Positions 11,878 through 63,489 of a stretch of DNA of 64,000 nucleotides are shown in pieces. Each line of letters begins with the position of its first letter. Position 1 is the stretch's first letter. The notes below the pieces were generated by a model. The model was not told the origin of the DNA. It saw only the letters and a list, made by a program, of their open reading frames with translations, and did not search any database. Made by a program: the position numbers and the translations under genes. Origin of the DNA: Sediminitomix flava (GTDB taxonomy: Bacteria; Bacteroidota; Bacteroidia; Cytophagales; Flammeovirgaceae); the NCBI RefSeq assembly GCF_003149185.1, contig NZ_QGDO01000008.1, positions 186,001-250,000 of the forward strand. The letters run 5' to 3'.

Positions 11878-14082
11878 ATGATTAATAAATCTATCAAATC
11901 TAACTTCATATCTGGCTTTTTAGTTTTTCTAATTGCTCTTCCACTTTGTTTAGGAATTGCAAAAGCTAGTGGATTCCCACCGATTGCCGGAATTTATACT
12001 GCAATCATAGGTGGACTTGTTGTTACCTTCTTATCGAAGGCACCTTTAGCCATCAAAGGTCCAGCAGCAGGATTAATTGCTATTGCAATCAGTGCAGTTG
12101 AAGAACTAGGAGGTGGTGACCACATCTTGGGATACAAGCTTACTTTAGCAGTTATTGTAGTATCGGGGGTACTACAAATACTTATGGGTCTTGCCAAGTT
12201 TGGAAAAATGGGAGATATGTTCCCAATATCCGTCATCAGAGGTATGTTGGCAGCTATTGGTGTCATCATCATTAGTAAACAGATCCATGTAATCATGGGA
12301 GTTGTTCCAGAAGCAAAATCTCCATGGGCTTTGTTAGCTGAAATTCCGCACAGTATTATGAACTTAAACCCAAAAGTTACAGTCATTGGTGTTTTAAGTT
12401 TAGCCTTGCTTTTTGGACATCCATATATCAAAAATGCAACATTAAAGAAGTTACCTGCACCACTTCTTATTCTTTTGGTTGCAATTCCTCTAGGGTTTGT
12501 CTTTAATCTATCGCAAACACACAGTTACAGCCTTGGATCTTTTGATTACAATATTGATCCTACTAAATTCTTGGTAGTACTACCTGAGAGTTTTCTTAGT
12601 GGTATCACTTTTCCTGATTTCTCTCAATTATTGAGCTATGCATCTATCAAATATATTTTGATGTTTGCATTGGTTGGTAGTATTGAATCAGTATTGAGTG
12701 CAAAAGCAGTAGATGCTTTAGATCCTAAAGGTAGAGTTACAAACTTGAATCAAGATTTAGTAGCTGTTGGTATCGGAAACACTATCGCAGGTCTGATTGG
12801 TGGATTACCAATGATTTCAGAAATCGTTAGAAGTTCAGCAAATATAAATGCAGGAGCAAAAGGCAGAATGAGTAACTTCTTCCACGGTCTTTTCCTTTTC
12901 CTTTTTGTATTGCTTGCCGCTGCAGTCATCAAAACTATTCCGAATGCAGCACTTGCAGCCATGCTTGTTTTCACCGGTCTTAAGTTGGCTTCACCACAAG
13001 AGTTTAAGAAGATCAACAGTGTCGGTATAGATCAGCTCTTACAATTCTTGACTACTCTTATCGTAACTTTAGCCACTGACCTTCTTGTGGGTGTAGCAGC
13101 AGGTATCGCATTAAAAGTTGTTATTGAACTTGTACAAGGCGTTAAAATCAGAGAAATGTTTGATCTTCAAGCTCAAACTTCAGCAAGTAAAGATGGTTTA
13201 GTCATCAAGTTTAAAGGAGTTGCTTCTTTCATCAACTACTTGAAATTTAAATCTTTGATTGATGCTCAGCCAAAAAATCAGAAAATTGTTCTTGATTTTA
13301 GCGAGGCCTTTTTCATCGATCATACATTCTTGAATAACATCCATAACATTCAGAATAAATTCACCAAAGAAGGTGGCGAATTGGTAAAAACAGGTTTTGA
13401 TAATCACCATTTCCAATCTCAGCACCATCTTTCTTCAAGAAGACTGATTACCAATCCATATCTACAGAAAACGCATTCAGATTTGTCAAAGCGTTCACGT
13501 ACAATTCAAGATATGGCCACTGCAAATCAGCTCGATTTTGAAGCTAATTTGAGCCCGTCGTTCATTCGTCCTCATTTAAGTGCATTTTCACTTTTAACAA
13601 GACTTCGCAGAGCGAAAAACTTTGTATTAGGGACAAGAGAGCATTACAGTTTTATGATCTGTGATATTAAGTACGTAAACTCAGACGATTTTTCAACTGA
13701 AACTAGTACAGCTACTATCGCATTGATCTTTAACATTGCAAAAGGTGGAATTCCTGAATTCTACACGCAGGGCAAAACTGACCTATTTAACTTCATCACT
13801 AAATATGACTTTAAATTGATGGATAAATCAAATAAAGTACCTTTCAACATATTTGGTAAAAATGAAGAATTAGTAGATGCCTTCTTTACTCCTCAAATCA
13901 CGGAAATGATCTCAGACAGTTCTTTCAACATTGAGTGTAAACGCCGTGAGATGCTAATCCATAAAGACTGGGGAGTGATTTCAGAAGGGGAATCGCTAGA
14001 AAAAATGCTGACATTTGTAGATCAATTCGCTTCTGAAGTTGTTAAGAAGAGATTAGAAGAAGCGACCAAAGATCAGAAATAA
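11878..14082 (+). CDS. SulP-family inorganic anion transporter with STAS domain
   Basis: 734 aa. Residues ~1-410 are membrane helices typical of SLC26/SulP, with the early GFPPIAGIYTAIIGG and KGPAAGLIAIA motifs and the VGSIESVLSAKAVDALDP stretch. A STAS-like domain (~440-540; KIVLDFSEAFFIDHTFLNNI) follows. A further ~190-residue C-terminal region (NFVLGTREHYSF... to the end) goes beyond the usual SulP length. SulP proteins move sulfate, bicarbonate or chloride, often with Na+. Because the surrounding genes encode sulfatases and glycoside hydrolases, sulfate handling is a reasonable inference, but bicarbonate transport cannot be excluded. Confidence 0.9.
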   Translation: MINKSIKSNFISGFLVFLIALPLCLGIAKASGFPPIAGIYTAIIGGLVVTFLSKAPLAIKGPAAGLIAIAISAVEELGGGDHILGYKLTLAVIVVSGVLQILMGLAKFGKMGDMFPISVIRGMLAAIGVIIISKQIHVIMGVVPEAKSPWALLAEIPHSIMNLNPKVTVIGVLSLALLFGHPYIKNATLKKLPAPLLILLVAIPLGFVFNLSQTHSYSLGSFDYNIDPTKFLVVLPESFLSGITFPDFSQLLSYASIKYILMFALVGSIESVLSAKAVDALDPKGRVTNLNQDLVAVGIGNTIAGLIGGLPMISEIVRSSANINAGAKGRMSNFFHGLFLFLFVLLAAAVIKTIPNAALAAMLVFTGLKLASPQEFKKINSVGIDQLLQFLTTLIVTLATDLLVGVAAGIALKVVIELVQGVKIREMFDLQAQTSASKDGLVIKFKGVASFINYLKFKSLIDAQPKNQKIVLDFSEAFFIDHTFLNNIHNIQNKFTKEGGELVKTGFDNHHFQSQHHLSSRRLITNPYLQKTHSDLSKRSRTIQDMATANQLDFEANLSPSFIRPHLSAFSLLTRLRRAKNFVLGTREHYSFMICDIKYVNSDDFSTETSTATIALIFNIAKGGIPEFYTQGKTDLFNFITKYDFKLMDKSNKVPFNIFGKNEELVDAFFTPQITEMISDSSFNIECKRREMLIHKDWGVISEGESLEKMLTFVDQFASEVVKKRLEEATKDQK

Positions 14083-40042: not shown

Positions 40043-40384
40043 TTAATCCTCTTTCATTGATAAAGGAATCAAATAGCTTTGTCCTTTGAACAATAAATGG
40101 ATTGTTCCCTTACCTTGATCTGGAGTAGCATGACAGTGGTAGCTTTCGCCTGTGCTTTCATACGTGAATACAAAAATCACACTTGACTCATTACCTGACC
40201 ATGTTCCTGTTGCAGAAAAATATCCGTTTACAGATTCAACAGAGCATACACCGTTAGCTTCAAAAGTGATGTTGAAAGGAACAAAATTACCTGATACTAA
40301 CCACTTCGTGCCATTCAAGCTAGACACAAAACCTTCTTTTAATGCTTCTGGTTTTAAAAACGATTTTTCAACAACTTTTTCCAT
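40043..40384 (-). CDS. Small beta-rich hypothetical protein with conserved leader
   Basis: 113 aa, not recognised. It has no signal peptide and an alternating beta-strand pattern (GTKWLVSGNFVPFNITFEANG ... SATGTWSGNESSVIFVFTYE ... GKGTIHLLFKGQSYLIPLSM), reminiscent of lipocalin- or avidin-like small barrels but without a diagnostic motif. The gene is single and followed by a long gene-free stretch. Its 5' leader (40408-40443) closely matches the leader of the tandem peptide genes at 62329, so the two loci probably share regulation even though the proteins are unrelated. Confidence 0.7.
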   Translation of the reverse strand: MEKVVEKSFLKPEALKEGFVSSLNGTKWLVSGNFVPFNITFEANGVCSVESVNGYFSATGTWSGNESSVIFVFTYESTGESYHCHATPDQGKGTIHLLFKGQSYLIPLSMKED

Positions 40385-40407
40385 AATTTTAATAATTAAA
40401 TATTGTC

Positions 40408-40443
40408 TCCTACTCTATTCATTAGGCTTTTCGGATTACGCCT
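40408..40443 (-). promoter_or_regulatory. Conserved leader element, copy at the 40384 gene
   Basis: Read on the minus strand it has an AGGC...GCCT stem enclosing TAATCCGAAAA, then AATAGAGTAGGA, ending 23 nt before the start codon. The element shares TCCTACTCTATT and AGGCTTTTCGGA (plus-strand reading) exactly with 62354-62388, at almost the same distance from a start codon. It is a candidate 5'-UTR RNA element. Confidence 0.65.
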
Positions 40444-40512
40444 ATCCATCTATATAAATGACTAATGACCGCTAAAGGCATGGACTACGGACAATCCATC
40501 TTTTGAAAACTA

Positions 40513-40929
40513 TTAATTGCTTGACATATCAACTAGACTGATTCCGCCAAATAAATCTTCAGAAGCTAGGTCAATGACAAGTTTAAATTTAGATGGCGTT
40601 TTAATACTGATCGTATCTAAGGCCTTCTGATTTTTTGGATATGGAGTTTCTGTCGTAAGACATTGTAGCATAATAACTGCTTCATCTTCATTTCCATCAT
40701 TCCAATACAATTGGTACTGTCCTTTGAATGTCGAAATCTGTAATAAGCTTGTGTTTGGAAAAGGTGCGTCAAATTTTAGAATTGGAAAATTAGGCACTTG
40801 AATAGTTCCTGTACAGACTTTTCCCCACTCCCAATTATTTAAAGTGTTTTCTGCATAAACAAATGGAGTACCTGTAGTTGTAGTCTGATTTTGTACCTCC
40901 ACCTCGGCAACTGAATATAATACTGACAT
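40513..40929 (-). CDS. Small hypothetical protein, beta-rich
   Basis: 138 aa from the first ATG (an upstream TTG would add 11 residues but gives no better start). Not recognised. No signal peptide. It has a predicted beta-sandwich pattern with aromatic and Asn-rich loops (NNWEWGKVCTGTIQVPNFP, YQLYWNDGNEDEAVIMLQC). It lies upstream of the 40043-40384 gene on the same strand with a 128-nt gap that contains that gene's own leader. It is divergent from 41327-41785 across a palindrome-rich region. Function unknown. Confidence 0.65.
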   Translation of the reverse strand: MSVLYSVAEVEVQNQTTTTGTPFVYAENTLNNWEWGKVCTGTIQVPNFPILKFDAPFPNTSLLQISTFKGQYQLYWNDGNEDEAVIMLQCLTTETPYPKNQKALDTISIKTPSKFKLVIDLASEDLFGGISLVDMSSN

Positions 40930-40962
40930 TATAATAGGTTTTAAGTTTAACTTATTTATCAA

Positions 40963-41326
40963 TTTTTTGGGTTACTAATCATAATCTATATCACATTGGT
41001 AGCTACTCAAATGAGTCTTTGTGTTTGATTACTTTACAAATGTGGAGTTTTCACCTTCAGTATCCATACCTCATACAGCGTATACTGAGATATACCACAT
41101 TTGTGCATCTAAATTTCTCAGAATCAGAGTTACCCCATATATATAATATACCTTAAATAGTGTTTTAAACGGGCTGTCAGTAGCTCATACCACAAATGAG
41201 GTATTGGTATTTACCACATACTGACGATGTTTCTACAAAAGTCAATTGCTAGATTTGTATTAAACTTTCTAAATAAGAGAAAGGAGCTTATTTAATGAAG
41301 ATAGATCTTAAATTTTTTCAGATAGG
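40963..41326. promoter_or_regulatory. Palindrome-rich divergent regulatory region
   Basis: Between divergent genes. It contains ACTCA-AA-TGAGT (~41004-41015). A nested inverted repeat follows: ACAAATGTGG (41036-41045) with CCACATTTGT (41095-41104), enclosing TCAGTAT (41057-41063) with ATACTGA (41082-41088). A second module has GTCAGTA (41176-41182) with TACTGAC (41219-41225), enclosing ATACC...GGTAT and GGTA-TT-TACC. The motif TACCACA recurs in both modules. The density and repetition suggest multiple operator sites or a structured transcript. Confidence 0.65.
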
Positions 41327-61429: not shown

Positions 61430-61654
61430 TTATTGTTCTGGAGCAGGAGGAGCTGGACTATCACAGTCACAACCTCTTACAAGTACCCAATCTCCAATGA
61501 TTACTGGTGCTTTTGCTGTCAATTCTGCTGCTGCTGCATACTCTTGTACATCCATGTTGTACTCTACACTTGAGTCAGCACTTGCTGAAAATGAGAACAT
61601 AGTAAATGCTACTACTGCTGCTGACAATGCACTGATTGTTTTTAATACTTTCAT
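61430..61654 (-). CDS. Tandem secreted Cys-x-Cys peptide, copy 1 (long-tail variant)
   Basis: 74 aa. The signal peptide (MKVLKTISALSAAVVAFTMF... to SASA) is identical to that of the other three copies. The mature part reads DSSVEYNMDVQEYAAAAEL...APVIIGDWVLVRGCDCDS, then a unique tail PAPPAPEQ. It is last in transcription order and has diverged at the C-terminus: Lys to Arg before the Cys pair, Glu to Asp between the Cys. No family recognised. It is probably co-transcribed with copies 2-4 and perhaps the barrel gene downstream. Confidence 0.85.
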   Translation of the reverse strand: MKVLKTISALSAAVVAFTMFSFSASADSSVEYNMDVQEYAAAAELTAKAPVIIGDWVLVRGCDCDSPAPPAPEQ

Positions 61655-61675
61655 CTGAATAAAATTTAATAGTTA

Positions 61676-61879
61676 TTATTTTGAATCACACTCACAACCT
61701 TTTACTAGTACCCAGTCTCCTATGATTACTGGCGCTTTTGCTGTCAACTCTGCTGCTGCCTCATACTCTTGTACATCCATGTTGTACTCTACACTTGAGT
61801 CAGCACTTGCTGAAAATGAGAACATAGTAAATGCTACTACTGCTGCTGACAATGCACTGATTGTTTTTAATACTTTCAT
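61676..61879 (-). CDS. Tandem secreted Cys-x-Cys peptide, copy 2
   Basis: 67 aa: a signal peptide ending SASA, then a ~41-residue mature peptide DSSVEYNMDVQEYEAAAEL ... PVIIGDWVLVKGCECDSK. Its protein is identical to copy 4. Small size, secretion, a hydrophobic PVIIGDWVLV segment and a terminal Cys-x-Cys point to a processed extracellular peptide. The family is not recognised. Confidence 0.85.
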   Translation of the reverse strand: MKVLKTISALSAAVVAFTMFSFSASADSSVEYNMDVQEYEAAAELTAKAPVIIGDWVLVKGCECDSK

Positions 61880-61900
61880 CTGAATAAAATTTAATAGTTA

Positions 61901-62104
61901 TTATTTTGAATCACACTCACAACCTTTTACTAGTACCCAGTCTCCTATGATTACTGGCGCTTTTGCTGTCAATTCTGCTACTGCTGCATACTCTTGTACA
62001 TCCATGTTGTACTCTACACTTGAGTCAGCACTTGCTGAAAATGAGAACATAGTAAATGCTACTACTGCTGCTGACAATGCACTGATTGTTTTTAATACTT
62101 TCAT
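61901..62104 (-). CDS. Tandem secreted Cys-x-Cys peptide, copy 3
   Basis: 67 aa, identical to copies 2 and 4 except EYAAVAEL in place of EYEAAAEL in the acidic segment before the hydrophobic part. The signal peptide and GDWVLVKGCECDSK tail are unchanged, suggesting these two parts are functionally constrained. Confidence 0.85.
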   Translation of the reverse strand: MKVLKTISALSAAVVAFTMFSFSASADSSVEYNMDVQEYAAVAELTAKAPVIIGDWVLVKGCECDSK

Positions 62105-62125
62105 CTGAATAAAATTTAATAGTTA

Positions 62126-62329
62126 TTATTTTGAATCACACTCACAACCTTTTACTAGTACCCAGTCTCCTATGATTACTGGCGCTTTTGCTGTCAATTC
62201 TGCTGCTGCCTCATACTCTTGTACATCCATGTTGTACTCTACACTTGAGTCAGCACTTGCTGAAAATGAGAACATAGTAAATGCTACTACTGCTGCTGAC
62301 AACGCACTGATTGTTTTTAATACTTTCAT
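62126..62329 (-). CDS. Tandem secreted Cys-x-Cys peptide, copy 4 (promoter-proximal)
   Basis: 67 aa, protein identical to copy 2. It is first in the transcription unit, directly behind the conserved leader element at 62354-62388. The upstream spacer differs from the intra-array spacers by a one-base contraction and then diverges, which marks the edge of the duplicated unit. Confidence 0.85.
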   Translation of the reverse strand: MKVLKTISALSAAVVAFTMFSFSASADSSVEYNMDVQEYEAAAELTAKAPVIIGDWVLVKGCECDSK

Positions 62330-62353
62330 TTGAATAAAATTAATAGTTATGAA

Positions 62354-62388
62354 TCCTACTCTATTGAAGGCTTTTCGGAATACCGCCT
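62354..62388 (-). promoter_or_regulatory. Conserved leader element, copy at the peptide array
   Basis: On the minus strand: AGGCGGTATTCCGAAAAGCCT (AGGC/GCCT stem) then AATAGAGTAGGA, ending 24 nt before the first peptide start. Two 12-nt blocks are identical to 40408-40443, and a similar TTAGT..ATTTA stretch precedes both. It is probably a transcribed leader with structure. Confidence 0.65.
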
Positions 62389-62501
62389 GTTTATAAATAG
62401 TTAAATACTAACAGTCATTAAACAAATTTTTTAGGAGAAGTATATGTTTTAAAAATACCTACTAACGTAATACTAAAACACTTTGTATTCACTAAATTTT
62501 A

Positions 62502-62726: not shown

Positions 62727-63489
62727 AATCGTTTATAATCTGTTGTGAGTGTATCAATTACTATGGAGTACATTTCGAAATCGAGAAAAAATTTTATATT
62801 TTGATGGCAAACTTTATTTACATCAAAAAAATAATTTCTAAATCATCACTAACTCAATAACTAAATGCTAAATAATTTTCTTTTGTTAGACTTTCTATAC
62901 TGAACTCCTGCTCTTTATTCTTTAGATCAGAATTGTTTTGATTGTCATCACTAAAGCTGAAAAAAAGTTTTTTTTATCTGATTTAACTAAGAAGCTGAAT
63001 CGACTACGTTTTAGTCTTTATTCTTTAGATCAGACTCGCTTTCATTGTCATCACTAAAGCTGAAAAAAATTTCTTTTTTTTTATCTGACTTAATTAAGAA
63101 GCTGAATCGACTACGTTTTAGTCTTTATTCTTTAGATCAGACTCGCTTTCATTGTCATCACTAAAGCTGAAAAAAATTTCTTTTTTTTATCTGATTTAAC
63201 TAAGAAGCTGAACCGACTACGTTTTAGTCTTTATTCTTTAGATCAGACTCGCTTTCATTGTCATTACTAAAGCCGAAAAAAATTTCTTTTTTTATCTGAT
63301 TTAACTAAGAAGCTGAACTGACTACGTTTTAGCCTTTATTCTTTAGATCAGACTCGCTTTCATTGTCATCACTAAAGCCGAAAAAAATTTCTTTTTTTAT
63401 CTGACTTAACTAAGAAGCTGAATCGACTACGTTTTAGTCTTTATCCTTTAGATCAGACTCGCTTTCATTGTCATCCTAAATATTAAAAA
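62727..63489. other. Divergent intergenic region occupied by a direct-repeat array
   Basis: 763 bp between the lipoprotein gene (minus) and a TPR gene (plus). About 185 bp of plain AT-rich DNA is followed by the repeat array, which ends 13 nt before the TPR start codon. Confidence 0.75.
62912..63476 (+). repeat. Array of ~105-bp direct repeats, five units plus a partial sixth
   Basis: Units start at 62912, 63015, 63122, 63228, 63333 and 63438 (lengths 103, 107, 106, 105 and 105). Each starts TCTTTATTCTTTAGATCAGA and contains CTTTAG...CTAAAG, an A-tract/T-tract block and GACTA-cgttt-TAGTC. TCTGAT and CTAAGAA pair with TTCTTTAG and ATCAGA of the next unit across the GACTA/TAGTC hairpin. The first unit is the most diverged. 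Lengths are not multiples of three, so the array is not coding. Confidence 0.92.

Follow-up and report, generated by a model that had tools for sequence, protein, structure and literature searches.

DUF805b RNA in Sediminitomix flava: a candidate cis-acting pseudoknot at a fixed distance upstream of unrelated genes

Why should two small-protein loci that lie about 22 kb apart in the genome of Sediminitomix flava be preceded by the same short leader? The window analyzed here is a 64,000 nt stretch of contig NZ_QGDO01000008.1, for which a preliminary description had reported two 12-nt blocks and an AGGC/GCCT stem common to positions 40408-40443 and 62354-62388 and had suggested either a new cis-regulatory RNA or a shared promoter-leader. 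We found each block exactly twice in the window, in conserved order and on the minus strand, and the reported distances to the start codon were also correct, with 23 nt between the last element base and the ATG in copy 1 (40407-40385; ATG at 40384) and 24 nt in copy 2 (62353-62330; ATG at 62329). A cmscan search against 4227 Rfam families assigned both copies to RF02914 over model positions 1-35, with 43.3 bits for copy 1 (E = 5.5e-9) and 36.7 bits for copy 2 (E = 9.2e-7), values that argue against chance. Both scores exceed the gathering score of 35.6 bits, and the two copies are therefore instances of a known candidate RNA; in the whole window, these two RF02914 matches were the only ones to pass the Rfam cut-offs. 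The copies and the neighboring genes comprise the following features:

40407-40444, minus strand: DUF805b RNA copy 1 (RF02914; cmscan)
40440-40443, minus strand: copy 1, 5′ strand of P1, AGGC, partner 40424-40427 (sequence and Rfam structure line)
40433-40435, minus strand: copy 1, 5′ strand of P2, TCC, partner 40408-40410 (covarying helix)
40424-40427, minus strand: copy 1, 3′ strand of P1, GCCT (sequence)
40408-40415, minus strand: copy 1, conserved tail GAGTA (40411-40415) and 3′ strand of P2, GGA (40408-40410) (sequence, covarying helix)
40385-40407, minus strand: copy 1, A/U-rich leader, 23 nt up to the start codon (sequence)
40043-40384, minus strand: gene of a 113-aa protein, 3′ of copy 1
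40513-40929, minus strand: 138-aa ORF, 5′ of copy 1 (149 aa if read from the TTG at 40962)
62353-62389, minus strand: DUF805b RNA copy 2 (RF02914; cmscan)
62385-62388, minus strand: copy 2, 5′ strand of P1, AGGC, partner 62368-62371 (sequence)
62377-62379, minus strand: copy 2, 5′ strand of P2, TCC, partner 62354-62356 (covarying helix)
62354-62361, minus strand: copy 2, conserved tail GAGTA (62357-62361) and 3′ strand of P2, GGA (62354-62356) (sequence)
62330-62353, minus strand: copy 2, A/U-rich leader, 24 nt up to the start codon (sequence)
62126-62329, minus strand: 67-aa Cys-x-Cys peptide with a signal-peptide-like N terminus, first of four tandem genes
61430-62104, minus strand: three more tandem peptide genes (61901-62104, 61676-61879 and 61430-61654) without an element of their own

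RF02914 is the DUF805b RNA, of Rfam type 'Cis-reg' and clan CL00115, whose name presumably derives from an association with DUF805 genes and for which we know of no function. The window copies resemble it in passing the cut-off over the whole model, in hairpin, loop and tail, in their cis-regulatory type and in belonging to the Bacteroidota. Of the proposed new cis-regulatory RNA, the cis-acting behavior was borne out by the covariation of the pairing, the orientation and the fixed distance to the AUG, while the novelty was not. A full-text literature search for 'DUF805b', with most subscription papers outside its coverage, returned no paper, and searches on the element found nothing in titles or the beginnings of abstracts; the accessible part of a Flavobacterium psychrophilum transcriptome study names Flavo-1 and does not name DUF805b (PMC9723704). 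The present analysis contributes the covariation test of the second helix, the finding of phage copies between cistrons, the constant spacing and the signature of the leader.

The AGGC/GCCT stem, P1, is present in both copies, but it does not form a simple hairpin, since a second helix, P2, crosses it and yields a pseudoknot. The structure line printed for the Rfam model contains only P1, and P2 was added here by covariation; the original description of DUF805b may already show the pseudoknot. Overall, DUF805b appears as an H-type pseudoknot of 30-42 nt, with a P1 of 4 bp, typically AGGC/GCCT, a loop that is usually GGAA or a similar sequence, a P2 of the form NCC/GGN, a near-invariant GAAAA loop, and the tail AGAGUA. 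The 4-bp P1 hairpin with the loop CCGAAAA and the tail AGAGUAGG was recognized in copy 1 from the alignment and in copy 2 from the sequence. P2, which was first suggested by the aligned copies, pairs the hairpin-loop triplet in front of GAAAA with the triplet following AGAGTA, that is, TCC (40435-40433) with GGA (40410-40408) in copy 1 and TCC (62379-62377) with GGA (62356-62354) in copy 2.

The existence of P2 was examined with 88 loci, of which one could not be parsed and the remaining 87 contained 83 distinct matches to the Rfam model. All three P2 pairs were formed in 75 of these 83, whereas 10,000 shuffles averaged 35.1 and did not exceed 48, and when the partner strand was slid by 1-4 positions, at most 3 of 83 still paired. 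Two-sided changes occurred at all three pairs; at the inner two, CG was replaced by TA in 3 and 4 of the 83 matches, and the outer pair was found in all four Watson-Crick types. In an independent pattern scan of GTDB contigs, in which CC and GG were fixed and the outer pair was left free, 108 of 121 copies could form it as a Watson-Crick or G-U pair (TA 40, GC 35, AT 24, CG 7, GT 1, TG 1), as could 40 of 41 viral copies. Free variation is mostly confined to one pair because the model scores, or the pattern fixes, the CC and GG letters. The innermost pair of P1 covaries as well (CG 48, GC 15, AT 13, TA 3, TG 1, unpaired 3), whereas GAAAA is conserved in 81 of 83 matches and the tail GAGTA in 83 of 83, with only A or G accepted by the parse at its first place. 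Judged by these comparative data, the pseudoknot structure is well supported.

How far does the element extend beyond this genome? The preliminary description would have counted an absence of further copies in related genomes against its reading; covariance-model searches found many. Within the family, 12 of 18 genomes contained a match at E <= 1e-4, 11 of them over the Rfam cut-off; in the order, matches were found in at least 200 of 390 genomes at E <= 1e-5 (at least 153 over the cut-off), and in a sample of the phylum in at least 93 of 395 at E <= 1e-6 (at least 76 over the cut-off), the latter two counts being lower bounds because the filters were stricter and 17 candidates were scored per genome. 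Up to 14 copies per genome were present in the family and phylum searches, and none of 14 control genomes, including one Bacteroides, had a match over the cut-off. The genus-level search covered the own genome only. There, a third copy on another contig scored 32.5 bits, below the cut-off, and has both helices, with GCT/AGC as P2; a fourth match (22.9 bits) did not display both helices by eye and was not counted, and 14 weaker matches (E between 0.04 and 8.9) are likely due to chance because all 14 control genomes also have matches at E up to 10. The GTDB pattern scan yielded at least 118 stretches. Of the 80 matches listed, 77 have titles naming a member of the Bacteroidota, the remainder including one Chlorobiota MAG and one Erysipelotrichaceae MAG, and the record titles among these matches place copies in several Bacteroidota orders. 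A plasmid search returned 36 records, two of which, from Aureibacter and Aureispira, cover at least 80% of the query, together with a partial match in a Flammeovirga plasmid; Rhizobium accounts for 29 of the 36, and those listed are 19-nt matches that we took as chance. A 16S rRNA gene, sought in the own assembly for comparison, was not found.

The orientation of the neighboring genes points downstream. An ATG-initiated ORF of at least 25 codons in the same sense starts 5-69 nt downstream of 169 of the 181 core elements, and for 154 of the 181 this start lies at 15-35 nt. The same search in the opposite direction gave 33 of 181. After dropping 11 redundant products of the 154 with a start at 15-35 nt and leaving out the other 27 elements, 143 non-redundant downstream proteins remained. 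The earlier claim of a conservation that concerns the element itself and does not depend on the gene behind it agrees with this set, in which unrelated genes follow and the most frequent annotated family accounts for 9 of 143 proteins. Among the families listed at E <= 0.001 were Chryseobacterium bacteriocin-like leaders (9), type A T9SS sorting domains (6), outer-membrane barrels (5-6, depending on the model), CCPGW bacteriocins (5) and class I lanthipeptide leaders (4), and caspase, aegerolysin, tail collar and bacteriorhodopsin were listed as single cases. A crude sorting by script divided the 143 proteins into 47 with an N-terminal double glycine, 64 with a signal-peptide-like start and 32 others; 75 have at most 100 aa. 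DUF805 itself was absent among the 25 of 35 Pfam families listed for these proteins. The gene context found here is broader than the DUF805 genes behind the name. The downstream genes are likewise mixed where one genome has several copies. Precursor genes within one locus may each possess their own copy, as do six double-glycine precursor genes in locus L141, four in L175 and three precursor genes in L065. An obligatory tag of double-glycine precursors was considered and rejected: only 8 of 30 matches to the precursor family NF047798 with available loci are themselves preceded by the element at the start codon, and DUF805b is thus not needed for this gene class. A wider regular expression for precursors gave 52 ORFs, false matches included, of which 11 have the element.

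In the window itself, Pfam searches gave no match for the 113-aa protein following copy 1 or for the first peptide following copy 2, the latter with a slightly trimmed query. In a relative (locus L040), a DUF805b copy is followed by a 116-aa protein with 50% identity, over the aligned part, to the 113-aa protein. At the Cys-x-Cys locus, only the first of the four tandem peptide genes is preceded by DUF805b. These genes form 225-bp tandem units at 61430-62329 on the minus strand, with 97% matches, and the spacers between the units have kept the A/U-rich leader beside the ATG and lack the pseudoknot. A 105-bp tandem repeat with 5.4 copies and 94% matches (62912-63480) adjoins the peptide locus. 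The sequence TTGAGTAGCTAC occurs at 40999-41010 on the minus strand, 69 nt 5′ of the ATG of the 138-aa gene that precedes copy 1, and when up to two mismatches are allowed it has 15 matches in the window versus 4.6 expected. In the relatives G006, G007 and G009, four of seven exact sites are located 17-22 nt upstream of a DUF805b match, and in the own genome none of three exact sites has such a distance; TTGAGTAGCTAC is possibly an operator or promoter element.

Across the larger collection, an ATG ORF of this kind was found downstream of 203 of 216 elements and within 40 nt in 194, for which the distance from the pseudoknot to the AUG has its mode at 21 nt, with a standard deviation of 4.2. 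The leaders in between were compared with control ORFs from loci L074-L232, which have 150 aa or more and are thus longer genes, with uncertain, script-called start codons, the targets coming from L001-L259: in the last 16 nt, none of the 194 leaders contains GGAG, GAGG or AGGA, while 30 of the 423 bacterial controls and 5 of the 177 viral controls have Shine-Dalgarno-like strings; the G content is about 4% versus 10%; and A residues at -3, -12 and -13 occur jointly in 69 of 154 leaders of the bacterial set (including one copy from a named phage) versus 82 of 423 controls and in 19 of 31 viral leaders versus 44 of 177. Raising the control length to 300 aa hardly changed these figures. According to the portion available of a study on Flavobacterium johnsoniae, A residues at -3, -6, -12 and -13 accompany high ribosome density, altering them reduces reporter output, and ribosomal protein S1 is predicted to be close to the region from -14 to -11 (PMC6847099). 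The positions at which A is raised in DUF805b leaders, -3, -12 and -13, are among those of these Kozak-like, A-rich initiation signals; the latter are sequence determinants near the start codon, and that portion of the study makes no mention of an upstream pseudoknot.

Many copies lie between cistrons. Among non-redundant copies, the stop codon of a preceding co-directional gene lies at most 20 nt before the start of the element in 17 of the 32 viral cases and in 26 of the 153 bacterial cases; copy 1 in the window begins 69 nt past the stop of the co-directional 138-aa ORF. The viral copies originate from a scan of viral contigs that found the element in 41 stretches. Of the 22 viral contigs searched as a whole, 21 contain one copy over the cut-off and one contains two. 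In an annotated phage collection, ten records matched (E = 0.03), RefSeq duplicates included, all of them phages of one Flavobacterium host; the copy of Flavobacterium phage lillamy9-1 (12781-12815) has both helices and lies between a gene ending at 12776 and a gene starting at 12836. The genes following viral copies encode ParB-like proteins, a PHROG 'DNA binding protein' that is HU-like in our reading, an Acb2/Tad1-hairpin protein and small proteins without matches. The Acb2/Tad1 hairpin domain, which follows the copy in L214, is a counter-defense fold. Phage proteins of 85-102 aa starting with MYTLR, MYTLT, MFALR or MFSLR follow the element in L194, L196, L205, L209, L211, L212, L216, L224 and L228; Pfam searches with four of these proteins and PHROG searches with two gave no match.

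Does the element act as DNA or as RNA, and on what? The shared promoter-leader of the preliminary description, a DNA promoter or operator common to the two loci, would fit the position of both window copies upstream of genes, and TTG-N17-23-TAnnT pairs are weakly in excess upstream of 150 elements, with 16 at 31-40 nt and 13 at 61-70 nt, versus about 5.4 per 10-nt bin in shuffles. Since these -33/-7-like pairs are only weakly in excess and many copies are intercistronic, we reject this explanation, to which the compensatory changes in two crossing helices and the fixed distance to the AUG likewise run counter, and consider it highly improbable. Taken together, the spacing, the lack of Shine-Dalgarno strings, the A signature of the leader and the intercistronic copies fit an action on the start codon below and not on transcription. 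A role in mRNA stability or processing, in which the element would shield full-length or processed transcripts at their 5′ end, would be in line with the ability of small pseudoknots to block exonucleases, and intercistronic copies could mark processed 5′ ends; for such a role the constant distance to the AUG would be needless, and we regard it as improbable.

A riboswitch similar in size to the preQ1-I class, in which binding of a small molecule stabilizes the pseudoknot and thereby alters translation of the next gene, deserves more weight. The preQ1-I riboswitch is about 35 nt long and is an H-type pseudoknot with short helices and an A-rich loop near the start codon, features shared by DUF805b; the near-invariant loops of this compact fold and the multiple copies in some genomes would also suit a riboswitch, and phage copies could sense the state of the host. 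In translational preQ1-I riboswitches, however, the 3′ strand of P2 overlaps the Shine-Dalgarno sequence, whereas the P2 strand of DUF805b is not a Shine-Dalgarno sequence and ends about 21 nt before the AUG, so that the start site is left uncovered; the 194 leaders contain no Shine-Dalgarno-like string in their last 16 nt. A riboswitch with an anti-element in the leader was unsupported, as the element has no excess complementarity to the leader together with the 45 nt at the start of the ORF, the longest match averaging 4.82 versus 4.84 in shuffled sequences (n = 185). The families listed for the 143 downstream proteins (25 of 40 and 25 of 35) reveal no common pathway and include no queuosine family, and at copy 1 no preQ1 model of Rfam matched, RF02914 being the only family found up to E = 1. 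If DUF805b were a riboswitch, which we think unlikely, its set of target genes would be unusually broad. Slightly less probable still is a site bound by a regulator, either a protein or an sRNA and either activating or repressing, with a regulon of accessory genes such as those for peptides and secreted proteins, a site that phages would have adopted. Its multiple, gene-independent copies with strongly conserved unpaired bases would agree with such a site, as would the restriction of the element to a subset of paralogs, which a regulon predicts; we identified no candidate protein, and the element is common to several Bacteroidota orders and to phages that differ in their gene sets.

The reading we favor, tentatively and at somewhat less than an even chance, is that DUF805b is an mRNA pseudoknot acting in cis on the initiation of the next gene, most likely by aiding the docking of the 30S subunit. 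The element would be part of the mRNA, also between cistrons; the pseudoknot would end about 20-24 nt before the AUG and be followed by a G-poor, A-rich leader, and it would affect translation initiation of the gene below by helping the 30S subunit to dock at the start codon, near the mRNA exit side of the subunit. As far as sequence comparison can tell, the pseudoknot, the cis orientation, the spacing, the intercistronic position, the leader signature and the independence from the downstream gene are supported; DUF805b is probably transcribed, and we infer that its effect is activating and that its partner is the ribosome rather than a ligand or a separate protein. Enhancement is favored because the leaders have the signature of well-translated genes, the element is gene-independent and carried by phages, and the start site is left uncovered. 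Against an enhancer stand its presence in only 8 of 30 NF047798 members and at only one of the four tandem peptide genes in the window, and the phylum-sample count together with the Bacteroides control speaks against universality. That GAAAA and AGAGUA are so strongly conserved could also be explained by a ligand pocket or a protein site, and structured elements within the initiation region are usually inhibitory to initiation, as stated in the available portion of the F. johnsoniae study (PMC6847099).

If the proposed role in initiation is correct, DUF805b may even be a portable, structure-based ribosome recruitment signal of ~35 nt that takes the place of a Shine-Dalgarno sequence for certain genes, also within operons and on the genes of phages, a more doubtful extension that we nevertheless consider possible. 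Bacteroidota mRNAs lack Shine-Dalgarno sequences, and to our knowledge it is poorly understood how these bacteria choose genes for strong or regulated initiation. A widespread short pseudoknot at a fixed distance from the AUG of bacterial and phage genes provides a testable candidate for such an initiation signal and, in that capacity, would be a useful part for the engineering of Bacteroidota.
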